Assembly: GCA_017560765.1 (NCBI GenBank)
Contig: JAFZEI010000005.1
Span: forward strand, 1 to 50,547
Direction of reading: 5' to 3'
From: Clostridia bacterium
GTDB lineage: Bacteria > Bacillota > Clostridia > UBA1212 > UBA1255
DNA: 50,547 nucleotides
This document shows, one piece after another, positions 2-49,057 of the stretch. The notes beneath the pieces are model-generated. The model was not told where the DNA came from. It ran no database searches and was given only the letters and a program-made list of their open reading frames with translations. Positions within the stretch are counted from its first letter, which is position 1. Every line of letters begins with the position of its first letter. A program made the translations under genes and the position numbers.

Positions 2-757
2 GAAGGCGTTGATGCAAACGCTTACGTTATGGTTGATGGTGAGAAAATCACAGGCGTAGCTGATGGCGACAAGTTTGTATATTCATTTGGTAACTTCGGA
101 CCTCAGCAGATGGGCGACGAGTTCACAGCAGAACTTTATGTTGACGGCGCTAAGGTTGATGAGAAAGTTTACAGCGTAAAAGCTTACTGCGATGCTAAGT
201 TGGCTGATGCTAGCTCAAGCACACAGCTTGTAAATCTCTTAAAGGATTTACTTAACTATGGTGCAGCAGCACAAGATTATAGAGATTATAATGTTGATGC
301 TCTCGTAAACAGTGATCTTTCTGATGCTGATAAGAATCGTGTAAACAGCTATGCAGCTGACGGAGCAGTTCCTACAATTTCAACAGATGTTTTCGATCCT
401 ACAGTATCTTGGAAAGCAGGAACAGTATACTTTGGAGATACAGTAAACCTTGCAGTTAGATTTGAAGGCGAAGCTGAGCTTGTTAAAGTAACTGTTGGTG
501 GAAAAACATACGACATCACAGAGTTTGAGACTCTTGACAATGGCTACAGAGTAGTTGTTGACGTTATTGGACCTCACCAATTTAGAGAGATAGTAAAATT
601 CACTGCATGCAACGCTAATGGCGTAGCAATCAGTGGTACACTTTCTTACAGCATAGGCGCTTATGCTGCTAATAAAGACACAGTAACAGATCCTATGTGC
701 AAATTGGTTAAGGCATTAATGGTATACGGCGATTCAGCAGCTGCATACGTAGCATAA
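2..757 (+). CDS. C-terminal part of a secreted protein with the YGAAAQ module (5' truncated)
   Basis: The reading frame is open from the window edge, so the start lies upstream and only about 251 C-terminal residues are visible. An ATG at 29 is internal. The visible part matches the last 300 or so residues of the protein at 1344-4430. Shared landmarks are a YSF...PQQMGDEF segment, LVNLLKDLLNYGAAAQDY followed by NVDALVNSDLSDAD, a beta-rich second half, and a closing LVKALMVYGDSAAAYVA. Each copy therefore holds two related 'L..L..YG..A..Y' motifs. I do not know the function. By analogy with the signal-peptide-bearing neighbour it is probably extracellular. A tiny peptide gene begins 21 bases after the stop and probably shares its transcript. 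Confidence 0.8.
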   Translation, partial: EGVDANAYVMVDGEKITGVADGDKFVYSFGNFGPQQMGDEFTAELYVDGAKVDEKVYSVKAYCDAKLADASSSTQLVNLLKDLLNYGAAAQDYRDYNVDALVNSDLSDADKNRVNSYAADGAVPTISTDVFDPTVSWKAGTVYFGDTVNLAVRFEGEAELVKVTVGGKTYDITEFETLDNGYRVVVDVIGPHQFREIVKFTACNANGVAISGTLSYSIGAYAANKDTVTDPMCKLVKALMVYGDSAAAYVA

Positions 758-778
758 TATAGGAAGGAGACGAATACT

Positions 779-949
779 ATGAAAAAGATTTTTGGTTTAC
801 CCGTTGTAGAAGTAGTTAACTTCCAAGTTGAGGATATTATCTGCACAAGTACTACTGGCGGTGCCGGTGGATTCTTCGGCGAAGAAGATGATATTTCAGG
901 CGCAGGCACAGGCGGCGGCGGAATTGAACTTCCTCCGGATTGGGTATAA
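779..949 (+). CDS. Small Gly-rich peptide A, 56 aa (ICTS / GGIELPPDWV family)
   Basis: The ATG follows an AAGGAG ribosome binding site by a good distance and the frame runs 56 codons to TAA. The N-terminal half reads PVVEVVNFQVEDIICTS. A Gly-rich acidic middle follows, and the peptide ends GGIELPPDWV. The peptide at 1112-1231 has the same N-terminal block and exactly the same last ten residues, but lacks about 17 residues of the middle. There is no signal peptide, membrane segment or recognisable domain, and one cysteine. The gene starts 21 bases after the secreted-protein gene and ends at its own terminator. The architecture (conserved front, variable glycine linker, invariant tail) recalls a precursor peptide, but no modifying enzyme or exporter is nearby. 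Function unknown. Confidence 0.75.
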   Translation: MKKIFGLPVVEVVNFQVEDIICTSTTGGAGGFFGEEDDISGAGTGGGGIELPPDWV

Positions 950-970
950 TATACTACTTTGATAAAAGAA

Positions 971-997
971 TGCAGCCTTTTAAGGCTGCATTTTTTT
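971..997 (+). terminator. Rho-independent terminator after peptide A
   Basis: A perfect 20-base inverted repeat (971-990, TGCAGCCTTT/TAAGGCTGCA) is followed by seven T. It closes the secreted-protein/peptide A transcript. Its sequence is almost the same as the terminator after peptide B. Confidence 0.9.
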
Positions 998-998
998 A

Positions 999-1027
999 TT
1001 GACAAAAAGATGCTTTGCATATAAAAT
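999..1027 (+). promoter_or_regulatory. Probable SigA promoter for peptide B
   Basis: TTGACA (999-1004) is followed by 17 bases and TAAAAT (1022-1027), right after the upstream terminator. This gives peptide B its own transcript with a leader of about 75 bases, for which I see no riboswitch-like fold. Confidence 0.6.
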
Positions 1028-1111
1028 GAAAATGAGTATATAGACTATCAAAACTAAGTTATTACTTAAATCGGTGGTTTGTGTAAATTAAATACGAGAG
1101 GGGTGTAACGT

Positions 1112-1231
1112 ATGGAGTTTATTAATCCTGTTGTTGAGGTTATTGCTTTCGCTTGTGAAGATGTTATCTGCACAAGTAATAATGGTGGTAACAACCAAGG
1201 CGGAATCGAGCTTCCTCCGGATTGGGTTTGA
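1112..1231 (+). CDS. Small peptide B, 39 aa (ICTS / GGIELPPDWV family)
   Basis: The ATG is preceded by GAGAGGGG and the frame runs 39 codons to TGA. It is a short paralogue of peptide A: NPVVEVIAFACEDVICTS, then an Asn/Gly linker, then GGIELPPDWV. The last 27 coding bases differ from peptide A at only two or three positions, both synonymous where I compared them, so the pair looks like a recent tandem duplication under protein-level selection. It has two cysteines and no export signal. It lies between its own promoter and terminator, so it is a stand-alone transcription unit. Function unknown. A precursor or signalling peptide is an inference only. Confidence 0.75.
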   Translation: MEFINPVVEVIAFACEDVICTSNNGGNNQGGIELPPDWV

Positions 1232-1254
1232 TTAATAATCAACTCGATAAAAAA

Positions 1255-1283
1255 TGCAGTCTTTTTAAGGCTGCATTTTTTTT
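1255..1283 (+). terminator. Rho-independent terminator after peptide B
   Basis: The stem TGCAGTCTT/AAGGCTGCA (1255-1275, one G-T pair) is followed by eight T. It is nearly identical to the terminator at 971-997, so the duplicated unit includes the terminator. Confidence 0.9.
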
Positions 1284-1343: not shown

Positions 1344-4300
1344 ATGAAAAATACAAAGCATTTTATTGCATTTTTTATAGCATTAAGCTTATTTTTGCCT
1401 ATTGTAATGCCTATTAACGCTGCAGCTGCAAACTCCATTTACGAGTATTCCGGAGTTACAATTATGGCAGGAGAGACGGCCCCTTTTTCGCCGGATTTGT
1501 CAAACGGAGTGTCTTGTACAAAAGGTGAAGATTACAGTACATTCACTACAGTGGACGTTTCAGATCCGTATTTTACAATTGACATGACAGATGTGACTTG
1601 GAATGGTAAAACGCTGGCAATCAAATACAGAGCGCCGGCAGATTCTGCTATAGCTAATTCCTATATATATCCCGAGACTACAGCCGGAGGTTGGTCTTTG
1701 TCGGGAGCAGGTCTTTTGGAGAAAGATAAAATGCTTTGTGATGGTGAGTGGCGCCTTCTGACATACGATATTTACACAGAGCTTTTGGGGGAGAATGAGT
1801 CGGGACCTACAAAAGAACAGCTTTCCGCTACTATAAAATCTTTGAGAATTGGTGGCGTTACTACGGAGAACGGCACAGTCGATATAGCGTATGTTGGTAT
1901 TTTTGATAATTTGGCACAAGCAGAGAATTACGATGCAATGTTTTGTAAAGTATACACTACAGTAGAGACAAGTTATAAATTGGAGGTCGTGCCGGAGTGT
2001 CTTAATGCACTCACAAGAGAATTTTATAATCTCAATGACAGCCGCGTAACAAATAATTCATCTTTGGTAAACACAGCATATAAAAGCTCAGGACGTATAA
2101 GAAATCCAATAAGAGCTACGTGGACTCCTAAAGGTGGCAATAACGAATCTAAGTACATTGTATCAGGTAGCAGTAAGTATATTTATTTAATGAATGACAG
2201 CCTAGTAAATGACAATAGATACGCTAATAATGTACCATACATTTTTTCCTCGGATATTCAGCCCAAGGACAACGCCAATCATTTTGCAGGATTTATTTTT
2301 AATTTTGGATATGAGAATGATGGTAGCAGTAATACTTTTTTTGCATCAAATAAAATAAATGGTGATGCATCTGTAGCAAAGAGCGGTATAGGAGTCAGTA
2401 TTTATCCTACATATATGGAGATATATGTTATATGTCTTGACGAAGAAACAGGCATACTCTCGCAAATTACAGAGAGCTTTGAACTTGATAGTAGTATAAA
2501 TGATGGTTTTCATACATTTAAGGCTGTAGATAATGCCGGCGGTGTTATAAGGTTTTATTTGGATAGTAAATTGATTGCCTCTGTTGCATATTCAAAGGAC
2601 AAAGTACCTACCGGAAAGGCAACAGACTACTCAGAAAGATATTACAGACAGGCAAGTATTTATAACGGTGACGGAGTTTTAAAGAAATCCACATCAATTG
2701 CGTTAGTCTCTTATACAAAGGCCGTGGCCATGGGTACTTGCGGCAGAGCAATTTATATTGATAATGTTTGCCTTGAACCAACAGGCTCTGAGAAGTCCTT
2801 GCTTACTCTTGATGCTATAGAGTACGATACCGGCACAAAGATTAAAGCTACTGTAGATTATAACGATACAGCAGTGAAAAACGAACGAATAGAAATTTAC
2901 AGAGAGGGAAAAGTTCCCGGAACAGATGCACCTGTTGATGTAATTTATATGGGATGTGCTTTGACAGTGCAATTTAAGACACCATCTGCTGTGGGCAATT
3001 ATTTTGCAGTTTTAATGGGTACCTCCGGGACGGAAAGCAAACAATATAGTGATGCTGTGGTTTTTTCTGTATACACTACTGTAAAAAGTGCTGTCAGTAT
3101 TGACGATGCTTCTGTAATTGCAGGAGGGACGAAAAAAATAACATTATCCATACCGGATAATATGGGTATAAGCTATATTGCGGTAAAGGTCGCTTTTGAT
3201 ACAACATATCTATCATTAAAAGAAACGTGTAGCGGCAGTGCTTTTGAAAAGGCTGTATTTACAGCTAGTCCCACCATTGCGAAAAACCCTTATATAATGA
3301 CTTGGGCTAATGCAGAAAATATTACGAAATCAGGCGTTATGGGAGAGCTTACTTTTAACGTAAGCGAAGATGCTGTAGGTTCTACAGAACTCAAGCTTGA
3401 AATTGTAGAAATTTATTCCACAGAAGAAACGGGCGAAATAGTAGATGTAACAAGTCAGTATGCAGCAGAAAACGGTGTACTTACTTTTGTGAGTCAGGAT
3501 TCAGAGACAATTTCGCCACTTGCCATAAACGGAACAAATCTTTCTTTGCAAAATGACATAACGGTTAAATTCCTCGTTAAAAAAGCAGAATTTGATGCGG
3601 CAGGGTACAGTAAACCTTATATAACTGCTGTTTTTGCCGGAAAGACTGTAATTTTAGAAGCAAAGGAGGAAATTTTATACGGAACACAATGCTATTCGTT
3701 TGCATTTGAGGATATAGCTCCTCAAATGATGAATGACACTATTTCGGCTACTTTGCATGCAGAGATTGATGGAATTACATATACCGGAGAAGTGTTCGAA
3801 TATAAAGTAACCTCATATATTTACTCTATGTTAGACAGTTCCGCTAATACGGAATTTCGCACGCTGCTTGTTGATATGCTTCGTTACGGGGCTGCGGCAC
3901 AAGTTTATATGAAACATAATGTTGATAATCTTGCCGATAGTAAGCTCACAGATGAGCAAGCTTCTTGGGGAACTTCTGCACTGCGAGAGTTAAAAACCGT
4001 GAAGAGCATTCCGTCGAAGGCAGAAGAAGACAGTGCTAAATGGGTGGGAATGACATTGTTCCTTGAAAATAAGGTGGCAATACGCGGATATTTTGATGTA
4101 GACGAATCTGAAGGTGTTGTGGTAAAAGTAACAGATACAAACAACAATGTACTGGCAACGCTTACAGAAGATATTTTTGAAGAAGTTACAGGGCCTGAGG
4201 GAACGCCGGTTAAAACATTTTTGTTTGAAGCTTTGGATGTTTCTCAAATGAATAAAACAGTATGCTTTACTGTGTGTGACAGCGAAGGAAACGAACTTGG

Positions 4301-4430
4301 CGGTACGGCCGTTTACAGCATTGAATCATACGCATACAGTATGCAAAGCTCGACGAACACCGAACTTGTAGAATTGGTAAAAGCGATGATGATGTATGGC
4401 GATTCTGCTTATGCATATGTGACTTATTAA
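1344..4430 (+). CDS. Secreted multidomain protein with cohesin-like domain and C-terminal YGAAAQ module
   Basis: 1028 residues; the start has AGGAG seven bases upstream. Residues 1-29 form a signal peptide (charged start, hydrophobic core, AAAA cleavage region). Residues about 30-200 and 220-480 are beta-rich and may be carbohydrate-binding or lectin-like folds, but I cannot name them. Residues about 583-716 resemble a cohesin domain: a VIAGGTKKITLSI opening, a VKVAFDTTYLSL strand, a TWANAENITKSGVMGELTF segment and a closing NGVLTF. Residues about 724-1028 repeat the module of the protein at 2-757, with LVDMLRYGAAAQVY and a final LVKAMMMYGDSAYAY. No catalytic motif, sortase signal or S-layer repeat is visible. 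An extracellular binding or scaffold role is inferred. It probably has its own promoter. Confidence 0.75.
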   Translation: MKNTKHFIAFFIALSLFLPIVMPINAAAANSIYEYSGVTIMAGETAPFSPDLSNGVSCTKGEDYSTFTTVDVSDPYFTIDMTDVTWNGKTLAIKYRAPADSAIANSYIYPETTAGGWSLSGAGLLEKDKMLCDGEWRLLTYDIYTELLGENESGPTKEQLSATIKSLRIGGVTTENGTVDIAYVGIFDNLAQAENYDAMFCKVYTTVETSYKLEVVPECLNALTREFYNLNDSRVTNNSSLVNTAYKSSGRIRNPIRATWTPKGGNNESKYIVSGSSKYIYLMNDSLVNDNRYANNVPYIFSSDIQPKDNANHFAGFIFNFGYENDGSSNTFFASNKINGDASVAKSGIGVSIYPTYMEIYVICLDEETGILSQITESFELDSSINDGFHTFKAVDNAGGVIRFYLDSKLIASVAYSKDKVPTGKATDYSERYYRQASIYNGDGVLKKSTSIALVSYTKAVAMGTCGRAIYIDNVCLEPTGSEKSLLTLDAIEYDTGTKIKATVDYNDTAVKNERIEIYREGKVPGTDAPVDVIYMGCALTVQFKTPSAVGNYFAVLMGTSGTESKQYSDAVVFSVYTTVKSAVSIDDASVIAGGTKKITLSIPDNMGISYIAVKVAFDTTYLSLKETCSGSAFEKAVFTASPTIAKNPYIMTWANAENITKSGVMGELTFNVSEDAVGSTELKLEIVEIYSTEETGEIVDVTSQYAAENGVLTFVSQDSETISPLAINGTNLSLQNDITVKFLVKKAEFDAAGYSKPYITAVFAGKTVILEAKEEILYGTQCYSFAFEDIAPQMMNDTISATLHAEIDGITYTGEVFEYKVTSYIYSMLDSSANTEFRTLLVDMLRYGAAAQVYMKHNVDNLADSKLTDEQASWGTSALRELKTVKSIPSKAEEDSAKWVGMTLFLENKVAIRGYFDVDESEGVVVKVTDTNNNVLATLTEDIFEEVTGPEGTPVKTFLFEALDVSQMNKTVCFTVCDSEGNELGGTAVYSIESYAYSMQSSTNTELVELVKAMMMYGDSAYAYVTY

Positions 4431-26554: not shown

Positions 26555-28990
26555 GTGAGCGATGGTAAACGAAAGATAAATAACAATAATAATAACAATA
26601 ACAATAGAACAAATAAAAAGAAAGGGCCTGTGACGGTAAAGGATGACAATAAAGGCAAGGAGATTGCGGCCGTTATTCTTTGCGGAATAGGCTTGTTTAT
26701 GCTTTTTTCGTTTTTTGATAAAACGGGTCCCATAGGCAGATTCTTAACTACAATATTCTTTGGCTTGTTCGGTCGTGCTGTTGCGGTTGTAGTGATGTTT
26801 GGCCTTTTTGTCATTGCCTGGAAGCTTATAAGAAGGGGAAAGGGTCCTGCTATTGATGTAAAAAACATGACTCTCTTTATATGCTTCGTACTTTTTCTTT
26901 CGGCTCTTTTGCATACACTTGGCAGTAATTATGCAAAGGAATATGCGAATCTCGGCTTTATTGATACGATAAGTACATTGTGGACTTCAAAGCTTGGCGG
27001 CATTATAGGTGGCGGAATAAGTTGCCTGTTGCAAAAGTATTTCGAAAAAGCCGGTGCTCTTGTGATTTTAATCCCTGCACTGATAATCGTTGCCATATTG
27101 CTTTTCTCTCTTTCCATTATGAAAATTGCGGAAAAATCTGCAACCGGTGCTAAAACAGTAAGCAGTTGGGTTAAGACTGTTAAAAAAAGATTTGAAGAAA
27201 CAGAAAGAGTAAAACAATCCACAGAGCATAAAGACATTAAATCTCATAAAACGAGAGTAGTGGATGGAGAAAATATTCCGAAGAATGATACAGAAGAAGT
27301 TATGGAGACAAGTCTTTCCGGAATGGACGAAGTTTACGGTATGGACTTTGAATTTGAAACATCATCAAATAAGAAAAAACGTAAAACAAAAGAAGAAAAA
27401 GATGATATTCACAGAGAAGATGACCCTGAAATAATAAAAACAGTATTGCCGGGAATGGACGAAACGGTAGAAACCGTTTCCCCCGAACAATTGCAGGGTG
27501 AAATCAAATTTACAACGAGTAAATTTGATACTATTTATGATGCACCGCCATTTTCATTATTAAATGCAAATGATGAACCTGAAGACCTTCACGAGGAGCA
27601 TAAAAAGCAGGCGGCAAGGATTGCAAGAAAACTGGAAGAGGTAATGAGAAGTTTCGGTATTGAGGCGAAGGTTATTCATATTTCCAGAGGCGCAGCTGTA
27701 ACACAATATGAATTGCAACCACATTCCGGAGTAAAAGTAAGTCGCATAAAAAACCTTTCGGAGGATATTGCTCTTAATTTGGCGGCGCCGGGAATAAGAA
27801 TAGAGGCCCCCATACCCGGTAAAGCTGCAATAGGAATCGAGATACCGAATGAATCTGTACAGACTGTATATTTGAGAGATTTGATAGAGACAGATATTTT
27901 TCTCAATCACAAATCAAGTCTTGCTTTTTGCTTGGGTGAACAGATTTCGGGCAAACCGATAATTGCCGATATAGCAAAAATGCCGCATCTTTTGATTGCA
28001 GGTTCTACAGGTTCAGGTAAAAGTGTGTGTGTAAACTGTATGATTATGAGTATTCTCTATAAAGCTTCGCCTGACGATGTAAGAATGATTATGATAGATC
28101 CCAAGGTAGTTGAGCTGGGAGTATATAACGGTGCTCCGCATTTGCTTATTCCCGTAGTTACTGAGCCTAAAAAGGCCGCGGCGGCTCTTGCTTGGGCAGT
28201 TCAGGAAATGGAGAACAGATATAAGCAATTTGCCAAATTCGGTTTAAGAGACATTAATTCATATAACAGCTATGCCTATGATAAGGGAATGGAAAAAATG
28301 CCGAGAATACTTATAATTATTGACGAGCTTGCCGATTTGATGTTGGTTGCAAAGGATTCGGTGGAGGATTCCATTAACCGTATTGCGGCAAAAGCTCGTG
28401 CGGCAGGACTTCACCTTGTTGTGGCAACCCAAAGGCCGTCCGTTGATGTTGTAACCGGTTTGATAAAGGCAAACATTCCGTCCAGAATCGCTTTTAAAGT
28501 TGCATCTCAAGTGGATTCAAGAACAATACTTGATTTTGCAGGCGCAGAGAAATTGAGAGGCCAGGGAGATATGTTGTATCATCCTGTTGGCGCATTGCAT
28601 TCTACACGTGCACAAGGCGGTTTCGTTTCTGACGAAGAAATAGAAAATGTTGTCAGATATTTACAGGCTACTTACGGAGATGCTAAATATGACAAAAAAA
28701 TCAGCGAAGAGGTGGAAAAGGCTAAGATTCCGGAAAAGGGCAAGAAAGGCAATGTCGGCACTGCATCTTCCGGAGCAGACGGTGATGTAGATGACCTTTT
28801 TTATGAGGCTTTGCAGATTGCGATTGACGTTAAACAGATATCGGCATCATTCCTTCAGAGAAAATTGGGACTTGGTTACAATCGTGCTTCCAGAATCATT
28901 GATCAAATGGAAGAAAAAGGCTATATAAGTGCTCGCGACGGCAATAATCCAAGGCATGTTTTGATTGATGAAATGCCCGATGAGGGATAA
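26555..28990 (+). CDS. DNA translocase FtsK/SpoIIIE
   Basis: 811 residues from GTG 26555, after AAAGGAGG. It moves chromosome ends through the closing septum, including the forespore septum in sporulating species. It starts with an unusual run of nine Asn coded by AAT/AAC. Four membrane helices lie at about 35-190. An acidic linker with two similar LSGMDE / LPGMDE motifs follows. The motor has the alpha/beta parts, Walker A GSTGSGKSV, Walker B IIDELADLM, and the RecA-like core to about 715. The C-terminal winged-helix gamma domain starts at DLFYEALQIAID. I cannot decide between FtsK and SpoIIIE by reading. Confidence 0.92.
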   Translation: MSDGKRKINNNNNNNNNRTNKKKGPVTVKDDNKGKEIAAVILCGIGLFMLFSFFDKTGPIGRFLTTIFFGLFGRAVAVVVMFGLFVIAWKLIRRGKGPAIDVKNMTLFICFVLFLSALLHTLGSNYAKEYANLGFIDTISTLWTSKLGGIIGGGISCLLQKYFEKAGALVILIPALIIVAILLFSLSIMKIAEKSATGAKTVSSWVKTVKKRFEETERVKQSTEHKDIKSHKTRVVDGENIPKNDTEEVMETSLSGMDEVYGMDFEFETSSNKKKRKTKEEKDDIHREDDPEIIKTVLPGMDETVETVSPEQLQGEIKFTTSKFDTIYDAPPFSLLNANDEPEDLHEEHKKQAARIARKLEEVMRSFGIEAKVIHISRGAAVTQYELQPHSGVKVSRIKNLSEDIALNLAAPGIRIEAPIPGKAAIGIEIPNESVQTVYLRDLIETDIFLNHKSSLAFCLGEQISGKPIIADIAKMPHLLIAGSTGSGKSVCVNCMIMSILYKASPDDVRMIMIDPKVVELGVYNGAPHLLIPVVTEPKKAAAALAWAVQEMENRYKQFAKFGLRDINSYNSYAYDKGMEKMPRILIIIDELADLMLVAKDSVEDSINRIAAKARAAGLHLVVATQRPSVDVVTGLIKANIPSRIAFKVASQVDSRTILDFAGAEKLRGQGDMLYHPVGALHSTRAQGGFVSDEEIENVVRYLQATYGDAKYDKKISEEVEKAKIPEKGKKGNVGTASSGADGDVDDLFYEALQIAIDVKQISASFLQRKLGLGYNRASRIIDQMEEKGYISARDGNNPRHVLIDEMPDEG

Positions 28991-47761: not shown

Positions 47762-49057
47762 ATGGTACTTGTAGAGCTGTATGATTCAGAACCCATAGAA
47801 AATCTTGTAGGCTTTATCGTTACAGAGCCGCGTAAAGTTGTTTTTTTAGGAGAAAAGAAAAAAACAGAACGATTTGAAAAGATTTTCAGTGGTGTTGCAA
47901 AGAACAGAAATATAAAAACAACATTTGAATCTCGCCCTGTAAACAGAAATTTTTTACAAGGCATGGTAGATGTGTTGGAAGATTTAGTACGCTCTGTCAA
48001 TGAAGAAAATCCTAAAGAAGAAATTGTATTTGACTTGTGCGGTGGTGACGACCTGATGTTGGTTGCTGCCGGTATTGTATACAAAGCGCATTCAGAGATT
48101 ATACAGCTCCAAAGATACAATGTATACACGAATAAATTAATAGATTGTGATGAAAATATCATTTCAGAGAGTCAATCAAAAGCGGAAATGTCTTTTGAGG
48201 AGTACACACGCATTCATGGCGGGTGCGTGATTGCTTCCGAATACAAAAGCGGAAGAAAATCAAGATGGGAAATTACACCCGAACTTAAAAAAGATGTTAC
48301 TGAAATGTGGGCTATTTGCGCACAAGATTACAGGAAATGGAATAAAAATACAGGTATAACTGCGAAAGCGGCATCAGACAGGAATTCTTCGCCTTTGAAT
48401 ATAGAGGTTAATTTAATCAATGAGCCGAGTAAAACAAAAGAAGATTATAAGAGCTTTACAAGAATGCTGTTAAAAGCAGGAATGATAAATAATCTTAAAC
48501 AAAAAGGCAATTTTTGTTCATTTAACTTTAAAAACAGAAGCGTGCAGCAATGCTTATTAAAATCGGGTGTGCTTCTTGAGCTTTATATAACCATTATTGC
48601 AGAGTCAATTGAGGAAAACGGGCAAAAAATATATAACGATGTTATGATGGGCGCGCAGATTGATTGGGATGGTATAAAGAGTCCGATGTCCGGAATTGAT
48701 GTTGCCAATGAAATTGATGTTGTTTTAATGCGCGGTTTGAGACCTATTTTCATTTCTTGCAAAAACGGTAGTTTTTTACCGGAGGAATTATACAAGCTTT
48801 CGGCTGTTGCAAAGCATTTTGGCGGTGAATATGCCAAAAAAGTTCTTGTGACAAATTACTTATCGGCAAACGATAATCCGGCAAGGAAAGATAACTGCTT
48901 GCAAAATAAGGATGAACCTAATGATAAATATATGAAACGATTAAAAAGGCAGCTTTTATGGAACAGAGCACAAGAAATGGACATAAAAATTTTGTGCAGA
49001 GAGGCCATAAAAGATGAAGCTTCGGCAGCAGAGGCATTAAAAAATTTATACAAATAA
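47762..49057 (+). CDS. Card1/DUF1887-like CARF-nuclease, outside any CRISPR locus
   Basis: 431 residues. Residues about 1-140 look like a CARF ligand-binding domain: [14 protein letters not shown] and [21 protein letters not shown], the last resembling the TGG-type loop that binds cyclic oligoadenylate in Card1/Can2. Residues about 160-260 would be the winged-helix linker. From about 265 comes a restriction-endonuclease fold: [27 protein letters not shown], with Asp 319 and Lys 334, then [20 protein letters not shown]. The usual Glu two places before the Lys is Ser 332. The start is nine bases after the small membrane gene, with only a weak binding site, and the two are likely cotranscribed. 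No cas gene lies in the window. Confidence 0.75.

Follow-up and report, generated by a model that had tools for sequence, protein, structure and literature searches.

Near the start of a contig from a gut-type Clostridia bacterium, two very short open reading frames stand in tandem and end in the same ten residues, GGIELPPDWV. The question that they raise is what such a pair of peptides is made for, and which enzymes, if any, act on them. The window, that is the whole stretch of DNA analysed here, is the complete contig C42 (50,547 bases) of a draft genome of 2.19 Mb in 132 contigs. Because it spans the whole contig, the first gene in it is incomplete. The features at the locus are these:

2..757, + strand: 3' part (251 amino acids) of a gene whose large, presumably exported product ends LVKALMVYGDSAAAYVA; its 5' side is lost at the contig end
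779..949, + strand: putative precursor peptide 1, 56 amino acids; leader 1-23, candidate phosphoacceptor Ser24, Gly/acidic core, tail GGIELPPDWV
961..997, + strand: intrinsic terminator hairpin behind peptide 1
999..1027, + strand: promoter-like TTGACA-17-TAAAAT ahead of peptide 2, matching the consensus at 11/12 positions
1112..1231, + strand: putative precursor peptide 2, 39 amino acids, tandem duplicate; leader 1-21, candidate phosphoacceptor Ser22, short core, tail GGIELPPDWV
1246..1282, + strand: intrinsic terminator hairpin behind peptide 2, a near-copy of the first
1344..4430, + strand: gene for a 1028-residue exported protein whose C-terminus is paralogous (36%) to that of the upstream partner

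The gene at 2..757 ends 21 nt before the start of peptide 1, as an operon-like partner would, and good Shine-Dalgarno sequences precede both short reading frames (779-949 and 1112-1231). At the orthologous locus of genome G001 (L033) the upstream gene encodes a complete protein of 676 residues with a signal peptide-like N-terminus, the peptide follows 17 nt further on, and a counterpart of the gene at 1344..4430 again lies downstream of the peptide. Elsewhere in the window, positions 47762-49057 encode a 431-residue protein that may be a CARF-type nuclease (weak, below-cut-off match to the Card1-like endonuclease domain), and positions 26555-28990 an FtsK/SpoIIIE protein with a run of nine Asn close to its N-terminus.

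A duplicated locus and its peptide family

An earlier note on this DNA had described two genes of 56 and 39 codons with a common N-terminus, an identical end and nearly the same terminator. This is what we see: PVVEV-x-x-F-x-x-ED-[IV]-ICTS is common to both peptides, the last ten residues are identical, and the hairpins at 961-997 and 1246-1282 form a 37-nt direct repeat. Since direct repeats of 63 nt and 34 nt are present as well, peptides 1 and 2 arose by tandem duplication. The note had also stated that the tail codons differ at silent sites only, and the DNA of the two tails does differ at three sites, all of them silent; the stop codon differs too. The identity of the tail might be a mere trace of recent duplication, with no function of its own, as the leaders and flanking terminators were duplicated along with it and tails vary widely between lineages. 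We consider this somewhat unlikely: between the two copies the leaders differ at 8.5 nonsynonymous sites and the tail at none, and lipoproteins encoded near the enzyme cassette described below bear similar tails.

A profile seeded with the two window peptides found relatives in 17/58 genomes and, when iterated over the order, the class and named Clostridia, collected 104 distinct peptides. By profile, the order has the family in 17/31 genomes; among the 292 class genomes sampled (each at least 85% complete) it is present in 38, which belong to 19 families. It is confirmed as a real family, beyond chance similarity, and the homologues outside this locus to which the earlier note had looked exist. 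Pfam and NCBIfam held no relevant match to the peptides, in keeping with the absence of any domain or family that the note had recorded, and a text search of the literature for the motif strings returned no matches. A weak match on contig C11 of the same genome (L004) was ruled out as a family member. In Kandleria vitulina DSM 20405 (L266, position 4486) a family leader is fused to an unusually long core of about 95 residues.

In peptide 1 numbering the consensus reads [YF]5-x-x-[PA]8-x-[IVLM]10-E11-[VI]12-[IV]13-x-F15-x-x-E18-D19-[VI]20-I21-T22-x-S24, or in short [YF]xx[PA]x[IVLM]E[VI][IV]xFxxD[VI]ITxS followed by a short, acidic and variable core. Leaders carry [YFW]xxP in 54/104 peptides and [YF]xx[PALVI] in 96/104. 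Ser24 is near-invariant, at about 100/104 in a count anchored on Ser24 itself and at 90% or more in an independent MAFFT alignment. The core beyond it has a median length of 14 residues and a median net charge of -4. Across three congeneric species the leader codons show the excess of silent change that the note had proposed as a test (pN about 0.14-0.16 against pS about 0.58-0.86), and the leader is under purifying selection. A conserved leader of 24 residues, a variable core and the presence of a modification cassette agree with the leader-plus-core precursor that the note had suggested from shape; its alternative, a signalling peptide, is neither favoured nor opposed by these results. The weight that the note gave to the tail was in part misplaced: the tail is lineage-specific, whereas the N-terminal leader with its Ser is widely conserved, although the tail does recur on lipoproteins associated with the cassette.

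A probable maturation cassette and the leader

The two reading frames very probably encode RiPP precursors that act in trans with a cassette on contig C33 of the same genome, where docking, phosphorylation and leader removal would yield a surface peptide. The earlier note had seen no modification enzyme in the window, which holds for the window and fails for the genome. Kinase, PqqD, SpI-like and NTP_transf_5 genes lie beside the peptides at the loci of relatives, and a search with the kinase profile found on C33 a kinase orthologue, then a PqqD gene and then a 515-residue SpI-NTP_transf_5 fusion. The HprK-like kinase matches the family profile at E=2e-101, the discrete RRE matches PqqD (PF05402) at 5e-15 and the NTP_transf_5 part of the fusion matches PF14907 at 1.6e-42. 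The RRE profile matches LppB (PDB 9x8z, E=5e-7), and the Ser-His-Asp triad of the SpI-like protease is intact in 85/85 proteins, the one on C33 among them. Searched against the PDB, the kinase sequence gave only weak matches to ABC-transporter P-loops, so a fold search was run; the modelled kinase of a congener (L231, pLDDT 96) has a PEPCK/HprK fold.

Peptide and kinase occur together. A full-length kinase orthologue is present in 37/38 peptide genomes of the class against 9/254 others (p=4e-37) and in 17/17 against 3/14 in the order, in a comparison that is not fully phylogeny-corrected, related genomes not being independent, though 19 families are involved. One genome (G260) has peptides and no detected kinase, nine have the kinase and no detected peptide, and the congeners G003 and G004 have neither, nor a clear syntenic locus. 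A second, distant HprK-like/PqqD pair in the genome under study (C13:6327-7007) is unlikely to be cognate because its counterparts occur in G003 and G004, both of which are without peptides; it is probably another RiPP-type system.

The peptide adjoins kinase-RRE-SpI(-ABC transporter-NTP_transf_5) genes in G108, G229, G275, G276, G114, G043, G073 and G111 and at many loci of named Clostridia, and among named isolates the cassette is carried by, for example, Ruminococcus albus KH2T6 and K. vitulina DSM 20405. The order in G108 and G229 is exported protein, peptide, kinase, RRE, SpI, ABC transporter, NTP_transf_5. On C33 no transporter gene lies alongside the cassette; an MsbA-like transporter is present at L211 and L217. 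Genes for NTP_transf_5, MBOAT acyltransferase, DHHW/AlgX-like and FkbH-like proteins stand downstream of the cassette at L174 and L175 (in G006 and G009; the Pfam matches are those of L174) and suggest an additional acyl-type modification in that genus.

The leader itself points to the cassette. Crystallography has shown how the leader motif YxxPxV is bound by the RRE LppB: Asp70 makes a hydrogen bond to the Tyr, and Asn33 holds the kink at the Pro (PMC13381572). When the RRE profile is aligned with LppB, all the RREs listed have Asn33, and the Asp70 column is D/E in 33/39 genomes with Tyr-type leaders and non-acidic in 13/16 with Phe-type leaders (p=7e-6, in a test that is not fully phylogeny-corrected). 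Of the three Phe-type exceptions, two are ties and the third is a mis-scored peptide (L289, MKTFYETP). With the labels of three genomes reset or omitted by hand, the kinase tree implies at least 6 switches between Tyr and Phe, and the RRE residue is non-acidic in every Phe-type row; a formal sign test could not reach significance because only three pairs lie on strongly supported branches. The genome under study combines Phe in its leaders with Ser68 in its RRE, and where the published RRE-binding motif is [YW]xxPx[V/L] its peptide 1 has FxxPxV. This covariation is a link in trans between the cassette and the scattered peptides.

Exported partners and related RiPP systems

Some RiPP systems have precursors that are encoded away from the enzymes, several of them being modified in trans under the guidance of the leader. 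The present family differs from these in that each precursor mostly lies behind a different gene for an exported protein. The order yields 62 matches, of which about seven are near a kinase, and 23 is the most found in one class genome. A same-strand gene ends no more than 60 nt upstream of 62/104 peptides, and a crude predictor calls a signal-peptide-like N-terminus in 50/52 complete partners against 205/743 (28%) of other large ORFs. A model of the partner's C-terminal domain, built from a shallow alignment (pLDDT 64), gave no significant fold match. The constant partner for which the earlier note had asked thus exists twice, as the gene for a large exported protein immediately before the peptide and as the kinase/RRE/protease cassette in trans. 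The proximity of the peptides to their partners and the export signals of the latter would suit unmodified small accessory proteins, either export or folding helpers or translational regulators, to which the cassette is linked only indirectly. Such a role is highly improbable, for it leaves unexplained the near-perfect co-occurrence with kinase and RRE, the adjacency of peptide and cassette at other loci, the covariation of RRE and leader, and the near-invariant Ser.

As precursors of a RiPP, the peptides most resemble the Linear Polyphosphorylated Peptides (LPPs) described in Bacilli (Popov et al., Nat Commun 2026, PMC13381572). In LPPs the kinase places several phosphates on core Ser3 and the SpI-like protease, aided by the RRE, cuts after residue -1; their biological role is unknown according to the same paper. 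Both systems have a discrete PqqD-type RRE, an HprK-like kinase, an archaeal-type SpI-like leader peptidase, an NTP transferase and no cyclase, together with short precursors that have an aromatic-xxP motif for RRE binding, putative in the clostridial peptides, and a Ser conserved close to the junction of leader and core; several relatives share the MsbA-like transporter too. By analogy the clostridial system is taken to work like LPP, with phosphorylation of the Ser predicted. There are also differences. The leader is [YF]xx[PA]...FxxED[VI]ITxS, the published distal motif Px9Fx[T/A] fitting 0/104 peptides, and the spacing from Pro to Ser is 16 (47/50 here) and not 15. Precursors are many (up to about 23 matches per genome) and scattered far from the cassette, an exported-protein gene lies just upstream, and the tail is common to lipoproteins; in the genome under study SpI is fused to NTP_transf_5 and the cassette is without a transporter. 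We therefore set the system apart from LPP in the strict sense, as neither the distal leader motif nor a transporter in the C33 cassette was found when looked for and phosphorylation is a prediction.

The lasso peptide systems of the paeninodin/pseudomycoidin type (PMC9266682) likewise have an HprK-like kinase, a PqqD-type B1 (RRE) and NTP_transf_5. Their products have a (poly)phosphorylated Ser, and in pseudomycoidin the NTP_transf homologue PsmN adds hexoses to the phosphate (PMC9266682). They differ from the clostridial system in their B2 protease and lasso cyclase, neither of which was seen here, and in having the phosphoacceptor at the C-terminus, whereas the one predicted here is at the N-terminal end of the core.

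Another highly improbable reading is that the peptides are precursors of another RiPP chemistry, lasso or radical-SAM crosslinked: RRE and RRE-binding motif are lasso-like and a radical SAM/SPASM maturase-like gene (NCBIfam TIGR04463-like) lies directly downstream of a family peptide in G011 (L047, 1755-3128), but we rejected a lasso identity because the genome under study has no match to the B2 cysteine protease (PF13471) at E<=0.1, with no macrolactam (asparagine-synthetase-like) cyclase noticed beside the cassettes on inspection by eye, and a radical SAM identity because such a gene is found at one locus only, Cys being present in only 9/100 cores. The core of the family peptide at L047 does contain Cys (GCGGCANETEEDVLG). 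As the radical SAM maturase is the nearest enzyme gene at that locus, some members may receive other modifications.

Lipoprotein tails and a possible role at the cell surface

Small lipoproteins with Pro/Thr/Ser-rich stalks are encoded near the cassette or near a peptide, and their endings resemble the peptide tails. In the genome under study a Pro/Thr-rich protein whose start is lost at the contig end (L171, C33 2-136) stands directly before the kinase and ends SHIDLPVDWWN, nearly a copy of the peptide tail; a lipoprotein of G006 ends GGIMLPPDYL. At L278 the lipoprotein ends IELPFVPAF and the peptide GELPFVPAE, and at L305 the two endings are IELPVIPIG and IELPVIPID. In a post hoc test of 14 pairs the lipoprotein tails fit peptides of the same genome better than shuffled pairs (26.0 vs 18.6 +/- 1.7, p=5e-5), which counts further against the tail as a relic of duplication.

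These observations can be joined to the precursor reading in a single pathway, in which we infer binding, phosphorylation and cleavage by homology with the LPP and paeninodin/pseudomycoidin systems. The leader (FxxPxVEV) would dock as an extended strand into the groove of the RRE, and the HprK-like kinase would phosphorylate the near-invariant Ser (Ser24 or Ser22) where the leader meets the core; a sugar or a nucleotide may then be attached to the phosphate by NTP_transf_5, and the SpI-like protease would cut off the leader. Once exported, the short linear acidic core ending GGIELPPDWV would work at the cell surface. Its partners there would be the large exported product of the gene next upstream and the lipoprotein of the cassette, which bears a tail of the same kind at its tip. 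The cell surface is most likely where the peptide functions; its glycosylation, its export route and what it does at the surface are speculative. A more specific proposal, which we offer tentatively and think rather improbable, is a system for labelling or docking at the cell surface, with co-transcribed peptides, one central cassette and a tail epitope common to the stalk lipoprotein; modified peptides and stalks would engage the same partner and so attach, mark or release surface proteins.

The peptide genes are overlooked by standard annotation and, since the published precursor motif matches none of these peptides, this clostridial branch would have been missed with it. The operon-like position behind genes for exported proteins and the recurrence of the tail on cassette lipoproteins connect the peptides with the cell surface and make their role testable. 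If the labelling or docking proposal is true, exported proteins at many loci would each have a peptide of their own, matured by one central cassette.
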